From Reinekea blandensis MED297 (lineage in GTDB: Bacteria; Pseudomonadota; Gammaproteobacteria; Pseudomonadales; Natronospirillaceae): a DNA stretch of 49,913 bases. The DNA lies in the NCBI RefSeq assembly GCF_000153185.1, contig NZ_CH724152.1:427134-477046 (forward strand), written 5' to 3'. The position numbers were made by a program, and so were the translations under genes. The notes below the pieces were generated by a model. It saw only the letters and a program-made list of their open reading frames with translations. It was not told the DNA's origin and did no database searches. Within the stretch, counting starts at the first letter, position 1. Each line of letters opens with the position of its first letter. Positions 1,924 to 49,913 of this stretch are shown piece by piece.

Positions 1924-3375
1924 TCAGTTTTCTTCGGATGCCTGAGAGGCCTCCTGCTCTGTGGACGGTTTACTCTTTCGGGTCGACTTCACCCGATACA
2001 TCGCGCGGTCTGCCTGCATCAATAACTGGTCGAGTGAGAGGGTGTCCGGTTCGGCCAGCGTCAGTCCGATACTGACACCGACATTGGCAACATGTTGTTC
2101 AACCTGTATGGGTCGTTTTACCGCCGACTCCAGACGGTCGCAAAGTTCATCGAGATCGGATGGGTGACCGGGTGCCGGGAAGACAATGACAAACTCATCG
2201 CCGCCAATGCGGGCAATGGCGTCGGTACTTTTCAGGCAGCCCTCAAAACGCTTGGCGATGATGTGCAGCACCAGATCGCCGATGGCGTGGCCGTACTGAT
2301 CGTTGACCAGTTTGAAACCGTCGAGATCCAGGAACAGGCAGGCAATGGGGTGCTGTTGGTGGCACAGGTGCTGATACCGTTCACTGAGACCGATGCGATT
2401 GAGCAGGCCGGTTAATGGATCGGTGGTGGACTGGTTTTTCAGGTTGACCTGTTCAGTAATGTCACTAAGGCTGATCATTCTCAGTTCTTTTGGTGACGTA
2501 GAAACCAACGCGGTGCAGACATCAAAATACCGACCGGTCAGTTGAATGTTAGTCAGGCCATTGATGGTGCCCAGCCAACGATGAATGGGCGTACCGATCA
2601 GGTCATTCTCCGATTCATCCAGTAACAGGCATGCGGTTTTGTTCGCAAAGACAATGGTTTGCTGAGCATCAATCAGAAAAACACCTTCACGCAGATGTCT
2701 GGTCAGTTCCATGAGTTGTTGCTGGGTATGTTTAGTCAGTCGGTTGATGGCGGTCATCCGATAGAGGATGGCGAAAAAATTGATCAGCACGAGGACAAAG
2801 ATGGATATCTGCGCGAGTCTCAGCCGGTTAATGTTGTTCAGTGAAATGTTTTGAGCATGAATGGTCAGGTCATTCATTAACTCGAGCAACTGGCGACTGC
2901 CGCTCGCCGCGAACTGCATCACTTTGTGGGAGTCAGGCACTTCACCCTTGGCAAAGCACTGTTCACAGTCGATGACCGGTTGCCAGATGGACCGGGCATC
3001 CGCAATCAGCTGTTGCGCATAATCGTCGGTCAGCGCGTCCAAAGTCACCGGTTTACCGGCGGCATCCAGTGTTTCTCCGCCGTTTTCAAAGGCGTCTAAG
3101 GTGTGTTCAAACAGATCAATGTTCGCAATGAGCTGTGTCCGGGAGGCATCGGTCAGCTCGGTATCGGCCATCGTGGTCAGAACGACGAGATCTTTCGCTA
3201 TACGCTGACTGAGCATGCGCTGGCGACCGGCGAGATTGATCAGTTCAGTGTTGCTTTCCAGTCGTTGACTGAGCGTCAGGTTGATGAACAGCAGCGAAAA
3301 GTCGAGCACCAAGAAGGCGGCCACTAAGACAATCAGTGGCAGCTGAAACAGATGGCGTCTGCTGTTAATAAACAT
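1924..3375 (-). CDS. Membrane PilJ-N/PAS/GGDEF protein (probable diguanylate cyclase)
   Basis: About 483 residues. A first membrane helix (10-35) is followed by a sensor region with the LESNTELINLAGRQRMLSQR pattern typical of type IV pili chemotransducer N-terminal (PilJ-N/NIT-like) domains. A second helix lies near 188-207, then a PAS-like segment (about 215-310) and a GGDEF domain. The active motif GGDEF (391-395) is intact, as is the metal/substrate segment FLDLDGFKLVNDQYGH. The inhibitory I-site, normally RxxD, reads KSTD, so product inhibition may be weak. It probably makes cyclic di-GMP in response to a periplasmic signal. I prefer the ATG at 3375 (AGGGA nine bases upstream) over the in-frame GTG at 3378. 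It is co-directional with the ABC genes (65-bp gap) and with the OmpA-like gene upstream (55-bp gap). Confidence 0.88.
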   Translation of the reverse strand: MFINSRRHLFQLPLIVLVAAFLVLDFSLLFINLTLSQRLESNTELINLAGRQRMLSQRIAKDLVVLTTMADTELTDASRTQLIANIDLFEHTLDAFENGGETLDAAGKPVTLDALTDDYAQQLIADARSIWQPVIDCEQCFAKGEVPDSHKVMQFAASGSRQLLELMNDLTIHAQNISLNNINRLRLAQISIFVLVLINFFAILYRMTAINRLTKHTQQQLMELTRHLREGVFLIDAQQTIVFANKTACLLLDESENDLIGTPIHRWLGTINGLTNIQLTGRYFDVCTALVSTSPKELRMISLSDITEQVNLKNQSTTDPLTGLLNRIGLSERYQHLCHQQHPIACLFLDLDGFKLVNDQYGHAIGDLVLHIIAKRFEGCLKSTDAIARIGGDEFVIVFPAPGHPSDLDELCDRLESAVKRPIQVEQHVANVGVSIGLTLAEPDTLSLDQLLMQADRAMYRVKSTRKSKPSTEQEASQASEEN

Positions 3376-3430
3376 CACGGTTATCCCTGTGTTGATGGTT
3401 ACGATCCGGTGGTGGCCGGCTAAGCCCTTG

Positions 3431-4498
3431 TTAGCCGGGGGTTTCCTCCAGTACCCGGGTAGTGAACTGATTGGGCAACAAAATCACTTCGATACGTCGG
3501 TTTTGTTGGCGTGTCTGAGCCGATGTTTCTTCCACCAAAGGTCTTGTATCGGCGTAACCTACCGCCTGCATTTGATCAGCCGGAATACCTTGCTTTAATA
3601 ATTCACGAACGGCTGATGCGGCTCTGGCCGCGGACAGCTCCCAGTTGGTTGGGTATTTTTCTGCCGTGGCGGGCGCAATGGTTTGGCTGTCGGTGTGCCC
3701 CTGAATGCTGATCAGGTGATTTGGGAAACTGCTCAGCGCTGTCGCTAAGTTAGCCAGGGATTGTCGACCTTCGGCGTTAATGTCGGCCCGACCGGAAGCA
3801 AACAGAATGCTCTCAGGAAGTTTGATGGCGGTCGTGCCGTCTTCCAGTTGCGTGACGAGCTTTTCTTTTTCCTGATTCAGCTGACTCAGCTGTGTCTGCA
3901 ACTGTGCCTCAAGGGCATTCATGGCCGCGGTCTCGGCCGCCATTTCCTGCCGCAGACGCTCGACGGTTTCACTGTAGGTTTCGTTTTCGGCCTGTTCCAA
4001 TGCCAGTTGTTGACGCGCAGCGAGAAAGCGTTCCTCCGTGGTGGCCGCTTCGTCGAGTGCGCCCTGTTGCTCGGCGATGAGTTGGTTAGCGACCTCGAGA
4101 TTGGTGTTGATTTCCTGAAGACGCGCTTCCGTTGCGGTCAAAGTGGCCTGAAGCTGTTCAACTTCCTGGTTTTTGGTACTGAGCTGCGCCTGGAGCTGAG
4201 ATTGTTGGGATTGCACACTGTTTTGGGCGCTGCGCAGCTGATCGAGTTCATTCGTCAGTTGGTTGCGCGCCTGAGTCAGCGTCTGACGTTGCTGTTCCGC
4301 AGATTGCAACTGCGATCGTGTTTGTTCCAGTTGCTGTTCCAGACGTGAGACCCGGCTCTGGAGCGCCTGGTTTTCATTTTGTGTGTCGGTCAATTGCTGA
4401 GTCTGAGTCCAGTAGAACCAGCTCACTGCGGATCCGGCCACCAGCAGGATGAGACTCAGTGACCAGGCGATCCAGCCGCGTTGCGACGCATACTGCAT
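3431..4498 (-). CDS. Inner-membrane-anchored coiled-coil protein with OmpA/MotB peptidoglycan-binding domain
   Basis: 355 residues. There is one N-terminal membrane anchor (about 10-30), then a long Gln/Glu/Leu-rich coiled coil (about 35-215), then an OmpA C-terminal-like domain (about 223-345). The latter has the SILFASGRADI strand and the peptidoglycan-binding helix TNWELSAARAASAVREL, the N-x2-LS-x2-RA-x2-V pattern that binds diaminopimelate in this family. The layout suits a periplasmic spacer linking the inner membrane to the cell wall. It lacks the MotB proton-channel Asp in its helix and has no MotA-type neighbour, so it is not a stator as seen here. It is transcribed toward the GGDEF gene with a 55-bp gap. 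Role otherwise unknown. Confidence 0.85.
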   Translation of the reverse strand: MQYASQRGWIAWSLSLILLVAGSAVSWFYWTQTQQLTDTQNENQALQSRVSRLEQQLEQTRSQLQSAEQQRQTLTQARNQLTNELDQLRSAQNSVQSQQSQLQAQLSTKNQEVEQLQATLTATEARLQEINTNLEVANQLIAEQQGALDEAATTEERFLAARQQLALEQAENETYSETVERLRQEMAAETAAMNALEAQLQTQLSQLNQEKEKLVTQLEDGTTAIKLPESILFASGRADINAEGRQSLANLATALSSFPNHLISIQGHTDSQTIAPATAEKYPTNWELSAARAASAVRELLKQGIPADQMQAVGYADTRPLVEETSAQTRQQNRRIEVILLPNQFTTRVLEETPG

Positions 4499-4582: not shown

Positions 4583-4792
4583 CTATTCTTTGTCGCAGGT
4601 CAGTTGTTCAGCCTTGCTTAACGCCTCTGGCGTGACCTCAGCACACTGACGACACAGGCAGCGGGCGTTGAGGTCGGCCTCCGGGATTTTCTGCCGTTGT
4701 GTCTCAGAGATGGTGACAGACATACACCAGCATTGAGTATCGCCCGTGCACTCGTTGGGCTGTTCACAAAGCGGACATTGTTGTTGAGTCAT
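4583..4792 (-). CDS. Small cysteine-rich CWC-type protein
   Basis: 69 residues starting MTQQQCPLCEQPNEC. It has nine cysteines, including the CPLC, CWC and CLCRQC groups of the cysteine-rich CWC family (proteobacterial proteins of unknown function, probably metal-binding). An open frame extends upstream to 4882, but that would overlap the end of astB by 32 bases. The ATG at 4792 starts exactly where family similarity begins and leaves a 58-bp gap, so I use it. It is the last gene of the arginine-degradation run and is probably cotranscribed with it, although no functional link to arginine catabolism is known to me. Confidence 0.75.
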   Translation of the reverse strand: MTQQQCPLCEQPNECTGDTQCWCMSVTISETQRQKIPEADLNARCLCRQCAEVTPEALSKAEQLTCDKE

Positions 4793-4850
4793 GGTGGTGT
4801 TGCCAGTCAGGTAAAACGGCAGTCCGACACGGGGCCGGACTGCCGTTGGA

Positions 4851-8703
<3,853 letters not shown>

Positions 8704-46852: not shown

Positions 46853-48220
46853 ATGTCGTCCCCCGTGCTGAAAACCTCTACCCGTGCCGCCTATGGTCTA
46901 TCCGATCTGGGGGTCAACATCCTTGTTATTGCTTCTATCCTGATCACCTTTACCTACCTGACCACGGTTCTGGGCGTCGCGCCGGGAATCGCCGGGTCGC
47001 TGTTGCTTGGTGCAAAGGTGTGGGACGTCATTTCCGATCCGCTGATCGGCCGCTTCAGTGATCGTACCCGCAGTCGTTTCGGGCGTCGGCTCCCGTGGAT
47101 GGCCGTCGGTGCGGTTATCATGGGGCTGGGTTTTGCCGGGATGTTTGCCGCGCCGCTGACATCGGCATCGCCAACACTGCAAGGTGTGTATTTTGTCGTG
47201 GCTTTAATGGTCACCTACACCGCCTTTACCATGGTCGGAGTTCCTTATGGCGCCATGACACCGGAACTGACCGAGGATTACGATGAGCGGTCCAGCCTGA
47301 CGGCCTGGCGAATGGGGTTTGGCTCGATTGGTCTGTTGTTAGGAGGTGCCGGGGCACCGGCTCTGATTTCGCTGTTTGGCGGTGGCATTGAAGGGCACCG
47401 TATCATGGGATTGATTTTCATACCGCTGGTGGCACTGCCCACCCTGATGACGGTCTGGGCGCTGCGACGACAGCCGTTGCAATCCACCGAGGTTGTCGAC
47501 ATTGATCTCAACCAACAGTGGCAACTGGTGAAACAGAATCGGCCGTTCGTCCGGCTTGCTCTGCTTTACATGGTGCAGGCAGGCATGATGGCGCAGGTGA
47601 CGGCGGGTCTGCTCTTGGCCTGTGCTTATCTGTTTGATTCGGCCGACCCGAATGCGCTGCTGACCCAGATGTACCCCTTGTTTGTGCTGACCACCATTGT
47701 GTCGTTGCCGATCTGGCTGAAGCTTTCCGCTCGCACATCCAAGCATCAGGCGTTTGTTCTGGGTGGTCTGGTGTTTACCATCGGCAGTTCTCTCATGGTG
47801 CTGATGGGACCGGATACCGTGCCCGCCGGTTTTGCTTTGATGGTCATCATCGGGCTCGGTTATGGGGCTTACATGATTTTCCCGTGGGCGATGATGGCGG
47901 ATGCCATCACCCATGCTCGGACCTATACCGACATCTCGTTGGAAGGCGTTTTTAATGGTTGGTGGACGGCGCTGCAGAAAGTCGGCATCGCGCTGGGACC
48001 CTTTGTCATTGGCTGGATGCTGCAATTGGCCGGCTTTCAGTCGTCGACCGATGGCTCCTTTCCCGAGCAATCGGAATCCGCTTTGCTAGCCCTTCGGTTA
48101 GGCGTCTCCGTGGTGCCGGCCGTGATCTTCGCACTGACGCTGATCGGCATCCATCGCTGGCCATTGGGGCGTTCGTCAACCGAAGTGTCGATTGAGTCAA
48201 TGGATCTGGTTGCCAAGTAG
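46853..48220 (+). CDS. GPH-family (MelB-like) sugar:cation symporter
   Basis: 455 residues, about 12 membrane helices. The signature WDVISDPLIGRFSDRTRSRFGRRLPWM (D-P-x-x-G-x-x-S-D-R-T) and GVPYGAMTPELTEDYDERSSLTAWRM identify the glycoside-pentoside-hexuronide family. It imports an oligosaccharide or glycoside with Na+ or H+. Next to a secreted beta-glucanase it could import cello- or laminari-oligosaccharides, but that is inferred from context. Its end overlaps the convergent protease gene by 24 bases. Confidence 0.9.
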   Translation: MSSPVLKTSTRAAYGLSDLGVNILVIASILITFTYLTTVLGVAPGIAGSLLLGAKVWDVISDPLIGRFSDRTRSRFGRRLPWMAVGAVIMGLGFAGMFAAPLTSASPTLQGVYFVVALMVTYTAFTMVGVPYGAMTPELTEDYDERSSLTAWRMGFGSIGLLLGGAGAPALISLFGGGIEGHRIMGLIFIPLVALPTLMTVWALRRQPLQSTEVVDIDLNQQWQLVKQNRPFVRLALLYMVQAGMMAQVTAGLLLACAYLFDSADPNALLTQMYPLFVLTTIVSLPIWLKLSARTSKHQAFVLGGLVFTIGSSLMVLMGPDTVPAGFALMVIIGLGYGAYMIFPWAMMADAITHARTYTDISLEGVFNGWWTALQKVGIALGPFVIGWMLQLAGFQSSTDGSFPEQSESALLALRLGVSVVPAVIFALTLIGIHRWPLGRSSTEVSIESMDLVAK

Positions 48221-48637
48221 GGCGAGATTGAGCCAGAAGCAAAGGTTCATGGTTGCATGCAATCCGGTACAGATCAGTATCGACCTCGTGTGCTGCCAAA
48301 CCTGGCCGAGAATCAACGATGGGAAAAAGACCAGCCATCCGACTGGCCCCTGATGAAATCCGTGCAGCCACGCAAATAACAGGGAAGCACTCAGGTTCGC
48401 CACCAAAGCCCCCTGGTTGATCGCCAGTTTGCGGGTCAAAGACTGCTGGATGAGCCCCCGAAACACAGTCTCTTCCAGCAGAGGGATCAGCATCAGAAAC
48501 CAGACCCAGTCGGCACCGCTGGGTTTGGGTAAAGTGCCGTAGAGTGACTGTAGCGGCAAGAACAGACCTGACAGCGGCGACAGATACAGCAGGGTTTGCC
48601 GTACCTGAAGCCGTTCAACCTGCCGACTGAACATCAT
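48197..48637 (-). CDS. Small CPBP (CAAX/Abi-type) intramembrane protease, probable sorting protease
   Basis: 146 residues, about four membrane helices. The glutamic-type CPBP catalytic motifs are complete: Glu55-Glu56-x3-Arg60 (LLEETVFRG), Phe88-x3-His92 (FAWLH), and His127-x3-Asn131 (HATMN). It is far shorter than Rce1-like proteins, resembling the compact proteases paired with C-terminal sorting signals (MrtJ/MrtX type). Its ATG overlaps the stop of the glucanase gene by four bases, so the two are translationally coupled, and that glucanase ends in a suitable tripartite tail. I infer it processes that tail. Confidence 0.85.
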   Translation of the reverse strand: MMFSRQVERLQVRQTLLYLSPLSGLFLPLQSLYGTLPKPSGADWVWFLMLIPLLEETVFRGLIQQSLTRKLAINQGALVANLSASLLFAWLHGFHQGPVGWLVFFPSLILGQVWQHTRSILICTGLHATMNLCFWLNLALLGNQIH

Positions 48638-49845
48638 CCGTGACGAAACAGTTTCCGCAAGCCATACAAACCGCTCAACGCCAGCAGCACGATCAACGAT
48701 AAATCACCGCCGCCGCCCGGACCGGCATAGGTACAGCCTCCAGCAGCCGGTGCGGTACGCTTTTTGAGCTCGGTGACGGTTGTTTGTTGGTTGTCTGGTT
48801 CCCGATCATCGTGAAAGTAGAGGGTGATTTCATTGGTATCTGACAGTGCGGAGGTTGGCACCTGATACTGATCGTTGGCGTCGGCCGCGACCTCTTCATC
48901 ATTGACCAGAAGTTTGTCGATGATGACAGTGTCCCCGTTGCCGTCTAACAGCTCGGGCAAGATAGTAATGGCCGTTCCGTCGGGGTCAAATTCCGTAATG
49001 AACTCGCCGTCCTGCAGAAACTGGAGATTCGCGATCGGGGCGATGTTGACCTGCGCGCGGTAATGGTCTTGATCGATGCCTTTGTCACCGGCCGTCAGGG
49101 CCAGCACCAGATGATCATCAATGACATCCATGTTTTCCGGAGCAAAGGTCACCAGGTTGGTGTCGAACGTCCAGTCGCCTTTGCCCCAGCGGGTGTTGTC
49201 CATGGTGCTGAAATCGTCGCGCCAGCTGAACTCATACTCACCGTCCTGCCATTCGTGATACTCAATCCAGTCAAACACCTGATACAACGGCAGGGTACTC
49301 TCATCAAACACCCCGACCCAATCGACGACTTCGGATACCCAGACATTCGCCCGATAGGTTTGCGGTGTGTCACGTAAGTCGACGATCTGTTGAGAATCAG
49401 TGGCAAAATCTTCCCGGACCGTCACGCCATCAACCTGCCAGCGCACGACATCCGGTGTCCACTCCAACGTGTAGGTGTGAAACCAGTTGATGTGTTCAAT
49501 GGTCGAGTGATCCTCTGACATCACCTTGTCTTCGGAATGACCGGTAATGATATTGGTCTGCATCAGGTCGGGTTCGGACCCGATGACCTCAATATCAATT
49601 TCGCGCCAGGGGATCTCATTGCCCGCCCAGGATTGGTTGTCGTAGGTAAAGAACGATGACACGACCCCCGGTGCGGAGAGCAGTCGGGCGCGGAAAACAA
49701 ACTTTCCGTATTGCACTGTCTCAAAGCTGAAGAGTTCTGCGCCATAGAGAGGCTCTGAGGCGGTGTTGGTGGTTGGATCATCTGCGATCGCGTGAGCCGT
49801 CAGACCGATGGTCATCAAGCTCATCAAGGCTAAGTTTTTGGTCAT
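48634..49845 (-). CDS. Secreted circularly permuted GH16 beta-1,3-1,4-glucanase (lichenase) with C-terminal sorting tail
   Basis: 403 residues from the ATG at 49845; in-frame ATGs at 49863 and 49890 would only lengthen the signal peptide (cleavage near residue 21). Residues 34-200 contain GH16 strands with the catalytic EIDIE (Glu82, Asp84, Glu86) and the C-terminal WIEYHEW end of the usual fold. The segment that normally begins the enzyme (WRDDFSTMDNTRWGKGDWTF ... VIDDHLVLALT) comes after it, at 208-252. This is the strand order of the naturally permuted Fibrobacter lichenase. Residues about 260-365 are an unassigned beta-rich region. The tail has Gly369-Gly370-Cys371, a GGGG linker, a membrane segment and RKLFRHG. 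It should cut mixed-linkage glucans at the cell surface. Confidence 0.9.
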   Translation of the reverse strand: MTKNLALMSLMTIGLTAHAIADDPTTNTASEPLYGAELFSFETVQYGKFVFRARLLSAPGVVSSFFTYDNQSWAGNEIPWREIDIEVIGSEPDLMQTNIITGHSEDKVMSEDHSTIEHINWFHTYTLEWTPDVVRWQVDGVTVREDFATDSQQIVDLRDTPQTYRANVWVSEVVDWVGVFDESTLPLYQVFDWIEYHEWQDGEYEFSWRDDFSTMDNTRWGKGDWTFDTNLVTFAPENMDVIDDHLVLALTAGDKGIDQDHYRAQVNIAPIANLQFLQDGEFITEFDPDGTAITILPELLDGNGDTVIIDKLLVNDEEVAADANDQYQVPTSALSDTNEITLYFHDDREPDNQQTTVTELKKRTAPAAGGCTYAGPGGGGDLSLIVLLALSGLYGLRKLFRHG

Positions 49846-49873
49846 GTGGAGATACCTGTTCATGTAATTGTTG

Positions 49874-49891
49874 TTTGGAACCGGTTCCAAA
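49874..49891 (-). promoter_or_regulatory. 18-bp perfect palindrome upstream of the glucanase gene
   Basis: TTTGGAACCGGTTCCAAA, symmetrical about a CCGG centre, 29 bases before the ATG. The form fits a LacI-family operator that would repress the glucanase-protease operon when no glucan is present. It differs from the site before the symporter. The promoter itself lies beyond the window. Confidence 0.6.
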
Positions 49892-49913
49892 AAGATGGAA
49901 AATTTTTTGGAAT

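Follow-up and report, generated by a model that had tools for sequence, protein, structure and literature searches.

The JDVT-CTERM/MrtJ system combines a short protease of the CPBP type with one adjacent target gene, whose product ends in a cysteine-containing tail. The accessible part of PMC11980579 describes this two-gene neighbourhood, citing Haft 2024, and reports it as sporadic in beta- and gammaproteobacteria. In the literature searched, which largely excluded subscription papers, no experiment on a JDVT-CTERM/MrtJ pair was found. For the sister enzyme MrtX, which serves MYXO-CTERM targets, the same part of that paper gives experimental support for cutting of the cysteine tail and for surface sorting. 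The model put forward there places lipidation before cleavage, lipidation itself being a hypothesis for which that text names no acyltransferase. A third system, GlyGly-CTERM/rhombosortase, brings its targets to the surface by type II secretion. On the enzyme side, the lichenase (1,3-1,4-beta-D-glucanase) of Fibrobacter succinogenes is a natural circular permutant, as stated with reference to Tsai et al. 2003 in the available parts of PMC2213659 and PMC2395249. Here, we analyse a locus of Reinekea blandensis MED297 where the gene for a lichenase-like enzyme of family GH16 overlaps that for a CPBP protease. It lies near the end of a stretch of 49,913 nucleotides, referred to below as the window (contig NZ_CH724152.1, positions 427,134 to 477,046).

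The two genes are read from the minus strand, and the four bases ATGA common to both hold the stop codon of the GH16 gene and the start codon of the protease gene (Table 1). Both frames are open; an alternative start for the GH16 gene, ATG at 49863, is found 6 codons upstream. As in JDVT-CTERM/MrtJ, a short CPBP protease stands beside a single gene with a Cys tail, and its 146 residues compare with 121 to 197 residues in 20 other MrtJ frames. The window pair differs from that system in its scores, with tail and protease both under the NCBIfam cut-offs, and in its cargo, a GH16 polysaccharidase. With MYXO-CTERM/MrtX of Myxococcus xanthus the pair has in common the Cys signature, the helix, the basic end and a related CPBP protease, whereas dozens of targets per genome are served there (35 in M. 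xanthus, according to the accessible part of PMC11980579) as compared to one here. GlyGly-CTERM tails likewise have a Gly-rich motif, a helix and a basic end, but they lack cysteine, and their protease is a serine rhomboid protease with many targets. We conclude that the pair is a genuine and well-formed MrtJ/JDVT-CTERM module, so divergent that it reaches neither of the curated cut-offs. That it forms a two-gene, one-cargo surface-sorting operon, in which the tail of the enzyme would be processed, has in our view a probability of about 0.7. The positions, lengths, strand and overlap of the genes, already given in a sequence-only reading of the window, were confirmed, as were the make-up of the tail around GGC371 and the full set of CPBP motifs in the protease.

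The downstream protein is recognised by the Pfam Rce1-like model (57.8 bits, cut-off 22.4) and holds the motifs EExxxR, FxxxH and HxxxN in the forms EETVFR, FAWLH and HATMN. Its best NCBIfam match is MrtJ (NF033192), with 71.2 bits, or 71.9 bits when the genome was searched. Scored with a domain profile made from 20 further MrtJ rows it reached 73.5 bits, as compared to 28.7 bits with one made from 8 CPBP proteases of other types. In a tree of 29 rows, a 100/99 branch put the protease on the side of MrtJ. On this profile and tree evidence, the protease groups with MrtJ rather than with other CPBP proteases. Within its own genome, searched as 4.5 Mb in 10 contigs (96.8% complete), no NF033192 match other than the window gene was obtained at E 1e-12, and one further CPBP protease is encoded. 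No relatives of the protease were found in the viral contigs searched, nor in the PDB at E up to 1.

In the GH16 precursor, the chain continues after the sole cysteine, C371, with Gly-rich sequence, a hydrophobic helix and a basic end. Cys signature, membrane helix and basic C-terminus are traits of JDVT-CTERM, and the JDVT-CTERM model (NF033191) was the only sorting model of NCBIfam to match the tail, with 20 bits. The tail is also the top JDVT-CTERM match of the whole genome (E 1.4e-4), the runner-up being a 28-residue frame at E 0.084. Taken with the gene overlap and the single NF033192 match, this ranking goes beyond what chance would give. When a tail profile was built from 11 other loci, leaving the window out, the window ranked first among 611 frames. 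MYXO-CTERM (TIGR03901) and GlyGly-CTERM (TIGR03501) were rejected as classes of the tail: neither model had a match listed for the precursor at a maximal E of 10, filters dropping most matches above 0.1 in the case of GlyGly-CTERM. The evidence on the identity of the protease is firmer than that on the tail. The sequence-only reading had linked the tail to a cysteine-containing sorting signal and the protease to its processing; the model search bore this out in that JDVT-CTERM and MrtJ were the best matches, and did not in that both scores stayed under the curated cut-offs. Its proposal of a one-substrate module agrees with the genome, where one MrtJ-like gene and one JDVT-type tail above noise were found.

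Above its cut-off, MrtJ was found in 21 of the 390 genomes surveyed from the order, in 28 of 398 genomes of a phylum-wide draw and in none of 14 control genomes. A Cys-tail gene adjoins the MrtJ gene or lies near it at 14 of the 21 order loci. The arrangement varies: the tail gene of G369 is about 1.2 kb from MrtJ, an additional open frame lying between them, two Cys-tail genes occur at the MrtJ locus of G223, and the locus of G004 shows the same four-base gene overlap as the window. Phylum-wide, a tail was present within 1.5 kb at 10 of 29 loci, one of these (L163) being weak with 11.8 bits, while the Cys-tail pattern found no tail at eight loci of other-type CPBP proteases (L026-L033). Ten tails beside MrtJ were scanned. 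Seven scored over 27 bits, two fell just short (25.5 and 25.6) and one had no JDVT match; with three of ten failing the JDVT cut-off, a tail below it is therefore not rare. At the 14 order loci, 15 tail genes were seen, and the domain scan of the targets covered 10 of them. It identified a subtilase, M4 and M12-type metallopeptidases, a VWA protein and choice-of-anchor or repeat proteins, and no glycosidase match among these 10.

Some MrtJ loci showed further variants. In L048, two successive Cys-tailed choice-of-anchor F proteins (2143-4452 and 4671-6173) precede one MrtJ, which makes a two-target version. An M4 metallopeptidase beside MrtJ (L060:6089-7714) has a tail that passes the MYXO-CTERM cut-off (22.4 bits) and has no JDVT-CTERM match; the tail classes therefore grade into each other. 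In family f78 (among L160-L183), a Cys-tail gene lies within 1.5 kb at just 4 of 21 MrtJ loci, and the targets may lie elsewhere in the genome. Four MrtJ-type genes over the cut-off, all of genus g61 (L063-L066), have no recognisable tail gene close by.

The enzyme part of the precursor was matched by Pfam Glyco_hydro_16 (PF00722) with 70.8 bits (cut-off 22). The GH16 motif ExDxE is present as EIDIE, and E82, D84 and E86 are invariant across 10 aligned rows, and likewise across 77. The six best matches to solved structures were beta-glucanases of the 1mve/1zm1 group, the F. succinogenes-type lichenases. One collinear alignment places residues 32-252 on 1mve (E 6.7e-57) and 33-252 on 1zm1 (E 1e-56), and residues 200-258 alone align to the C-terminal part of these chains (1zm1 178-227, 1mve 181-230). 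A 15-row profile of the permuted segment matches the N-terminus of a canonical glucanase (3wvj 12-54, E 6.8e-5) and, weakly, 3i4i 27-71 (E 0.41). Positions 2-166 of the whole-domain profile match 3wvj 60-214, and that profile spans the engineered permutant 1cpm from 3 to 209. Because the segment matches the N-terminus of 3wvj and the part preceding it matches 3wvj 60-214, the domain is circularly permuted, the ordinary N-terminal segment standing after the C-terminal strand, as the sequence-only reading had proposed for residues 208-252. The same matches to 3wvj rule out the canonical GH16 order. The permutation is that of the F. succinogenes glucanase, from which the window enzyme differs by its C-terminus, a 145-residue extension made of a spacer and the Cys tail. 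This extension has a match in 1 of the 390 order genomes, its own, and was not found in the same-genus genomes G303 and G355, which are among the 390 and both have tailless copies. The spacer has no credible PDB match (best E 1.1), and a known domain was discarded as an explanation of the extension, no Pfam, PDB or order-genome relative being found. Another GH16 enzyme of G355 (L046:631-2058) has, by eye, the ordinary unpermuted order.

The route that we envisage for the enzyme draws on features read from the sequences themselves: the anatomy of the precursor, the permutation and catalytic motifs, the placement of the protease with MrtJ, the gene overlap, one target above noise and a type II secretin gene (GspD, 496 bits, cut-off 351). 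Sec would export the precursor, the C-terminal helix would anchor it in the inner membrane, and the permuted lichenase would fold in the periplasm. A lipid would then be added to C371, probably by a general acyltransferase. The MrtJ-like protease would cut on the C-terminal side of C371, the helix would be removed, and type II secretion would carry the enzyme to the surface. Lipidation, cleavage site and surface display are inferred by analogy with MrtX/MYXO-CTERM and TraA, as treated in the accessible part of PMC11980579. The sequence-only reading had placed a possible lipid attachment after cleavage; this order was reversed, since the MrtX model in that text puts lipidation first.

Several results weigh against a dedicated sorting operon. 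The tail misses the curated JDVT-CTERM cut-off (20 of 27 bits; 24.7 in the genome search), and the protease that of MrtJ (71.2 of 75 bits). The window-free tail profile gives the window tail just 11.2 bits (E 0.008 over the 611 frames), and the JDVT-CTERM model also produces sub-cut-off matches (E up to 10) in 12 of the 14 control genomes. In the tree, the protease forms a long end branch (1.75) whose exact sister is unsure. Adjacency is not universal: no tail gene appeared in the stretch read at 19 of 29 phylum loci and at 7 of 21 order loci, namely G298 and G262 near contig ends, four of one genus, and G352. The order tails were moreover partly found with the pattern that seeded the tail profile, which means that the count of 14 out of 21 is not blind.

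One expectation of the sequence-only reading concerned the homologues of the enzyme, in which the two genes were to occur together. The permuted-domain profile was run over 84,980 species genomes. This yielded 206 pattern stretches and 98 relatives, of which the best 80 were kept, giving 77 loci. With a motif filter and a profile, a CPBP gene was found at none of these 77 other loci, in flanks of up to 4 kb and often less. As a positive control, the filter recovered 21 of 22 MrtJ loci, the miss presumably being L018, whose frame contains a stop. Within these flanks, the genes thus do not co-occur in the homologues, and a tail-protease pair as a conserved property of the lichenase was rejected. 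What the tail accompanies is MrtJ rather than the lichenase. Overall, what the sequence-only reading had observed is confirmed, and its interpretation is partly supported.

The same tail could serve another end. A single C-terminal helix with a basic end would also make a permanent inner-membrane anchor, with which the low tail score would agree; the enzyme would then be periplasmic, and the adjacent protease would be unrelated to it or degrade it. This is unlikely, in view of the fact that the gene with the genome's top JDVT-CTERM match overlaps the single MrtJ-type gene and that the layout of MrtJ with a single target, published in the accessible part of PMC11980579, recurs at 14 of 21 order loci. 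Somewhat less likely still is that the host rhombosortase reads the tail as a GlyGly-CTERM variant and that the CPBP gene does something else. In its favour, the genome encodes a rhombosortase that scores 96.3 bits (cut-off 84) as well as one to three GlyGly-CTERM frames, and both sorting systems thus seem to be present. Gly-Gly and a Gly-rich linker occur in the tail, too, and related Cellvibrio lichenases bear GlyGly-like tails. However, a cysteine occupies the JDVT position, the overlapping protease groups with MrtJ, and the GlyGly-CTERM model has, as noted, no match listed for the precursor. A degenerate system, in which function has been relaxed and tail and protease have drifted below the models, could account for the long protease branch and the two sub-cut-off scores but is very improbable, as the three CPBP motifs, the cysteine and the gene overlap are intact and both frames are open.

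The 77 lichenase loci were aligned after L087 and L102 (open frames) and L129 (short) had been dropped and the window, L034 and L035 added, which again gave 77 rows; L035 and L068 are the same gene. In the domain tree, the window falls in a 9-row clade (100/100) with two same-genus species, Psychromonas marina and four Vibrio species. Over 772 bases, one of the same-genus genomes, G303, matches Reinekea marinisedimentorum DSM 15388 throughout, which supports the gammaproteobacterial host that the sequence-only reading had assumed. The other 8 rows of the clade (7 genes) stop 0 to 9 residues past the domain and are tailless. Most simply, extension, Cys tail and protease were gained on the branch of the window, because the nearest lichenases are without all three and because loss elsewhere would take several events.

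Across the 77 rows, tail labels were assigned by eye together with model scans. Type IX secretion system (T9SS) signals were assigned to 19 rows, MYXO to 10, GlyGly to 11, JDVT to 1, none to 10 and other ends to 26. Models supported, at E 0.01, T9SS type A in 15 rows, T9SS type C in 2, MYXO in 5, GlyGly in 1 and JDVT in 1. Of the 21 tails labelled GlyGly or MYXO, 20 were scanned singly (L124 was left out), and the cut-off was passed by 1 of 10 GlyGly and 3 of 10 MYXO tails. The labels vary with the host. Bacteroidota and Fibrobacterota have T9SS type A domains (19 rows by eye, 15 by model). MYXO-CTERM-like tails belong mainly to Myxococcota, with 10 rows by eye and 5 by model; the record of one host bears the title Proteobacteria. 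Cellvibrionaceae and unplaced gammaproteobacteria have GlyGly-like tails (11 rows by eye, 1 by model). The JDVT-like tail is that of the window alone, and the four Vibrio species and the two other same-genus species having the enzyme carry it tailless. Placed on the tree, the labels need 13 changes, the minimum possible being 5. According to the available part of PMC13393428, the GlyGly-CTERM tail of Vibrio cholerae VesB, when put on HapA, led to partial cell retention dependent on RssP (rhombosortase); natural refitting of tails is plausible on this ground. We tentatively propose, at somewhat less than even odds, that the permuted lichenase is a mobile cargo refitted with C-terminal sorting signals that its hosts can read. 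Here, it would have brought its own protease, tail and protease acting as a transferable display cassette that turns a secreted enzyme into a cell-bound one in one step. Tandem permuted lichenases were seen in one genome (L037:177-1361 and 1474-2499), one ending in a further domain and the other in a GlyGly-type tail.

As a kind of system, the module is known: its two-gene MrtJ/JDVT-CTERM layout is already described in the accessible part of PMC11980579. New are the polysaccharidase as a type of cargo, unmet among the targets scanned, and the history of the enzyme's anchor. The pair is also tractable: the cargo family has a simple assayable activity, the tail holds the sole cysteine, there is seemingly one protease per target, and tailless natural homologues offer controls. 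Questions about the myxosortase group, whether the cysteine is lipidated, by what, and where the tail is cut, thereby become directly testable. From the survey, a single catalytic domain seems to have received several unrelated anchoring signals across phyla, and this series of anchors is natural material for studying how secreted enzymes become cell-bound.

Table 1. Features of the GH16-protease locus, in window coordinates.
Feature	Positions	Strand	Remark
GH16 precursor, 403 residues: signal peptide, permuted lichenase domain, orphan spacer, Cys tail	48634..49845	-	
Probable Sec signal peptide, residues 1-21	49783..49845	-	inferred from hydrophobic stretch 5-21
Circularly permuted GH16 lichenase domain, residues 31-258	49072..49755	-	
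GH16 catalytic motif EIDIE, residues 82-86	49588..49602	-	
Segment N-terminal in ordinary GH16 enzymes, here residues 208-252	49090..49224	-	
Spacer or domain without detectable relatives, residues 259-365	48751..49071	-	
JDVT-CTERM-like tail, residues 369-403: GGC, Gly-rich linker, membrane helix, basic end	48637..48741	-	
Cys371, sole cysteine, proposed lipidation site	48733..48735	-	
ATGA stop/start overlap of GH16 and protease genes	48634..48637	-	
MrtJ-like CPBP intramembrane protease, 146 residues	48197..48637	-	
CPBP motif 1, EETVFR, residues 55-60	48458..48475	-	
CPBP motif 2, FAWLH, residues 88-92	48362..48376	-	
CPBP motif 3, HATMN, residues 127-131	48245..48259	-	
Perfect palindrome TTGGAACCGGTTCCAA upstream of operon	49875..49890	.	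possible LacI-type operator

Upstream of the pair, the window stops (at 49913) at an assembly gap of 69 N (L003:3048-3116) that lies directly upstream of the GH16 promoter region. Across this gap, a LacI-family gene (L003:3158-4189) is oriented in the same direction as the operon. Its product may control expression of the two genes, with the 16-base palindrome as a putative operator; no copy of this palindrome was found at 8 loci from tailless relatives. On the other side, an MFS_2 sugar transporter gene (46853-48220) is convergent with the pair and overlaps the 3′ end of the protease gene by 24 bases. This transporter may import oligosaccharides.

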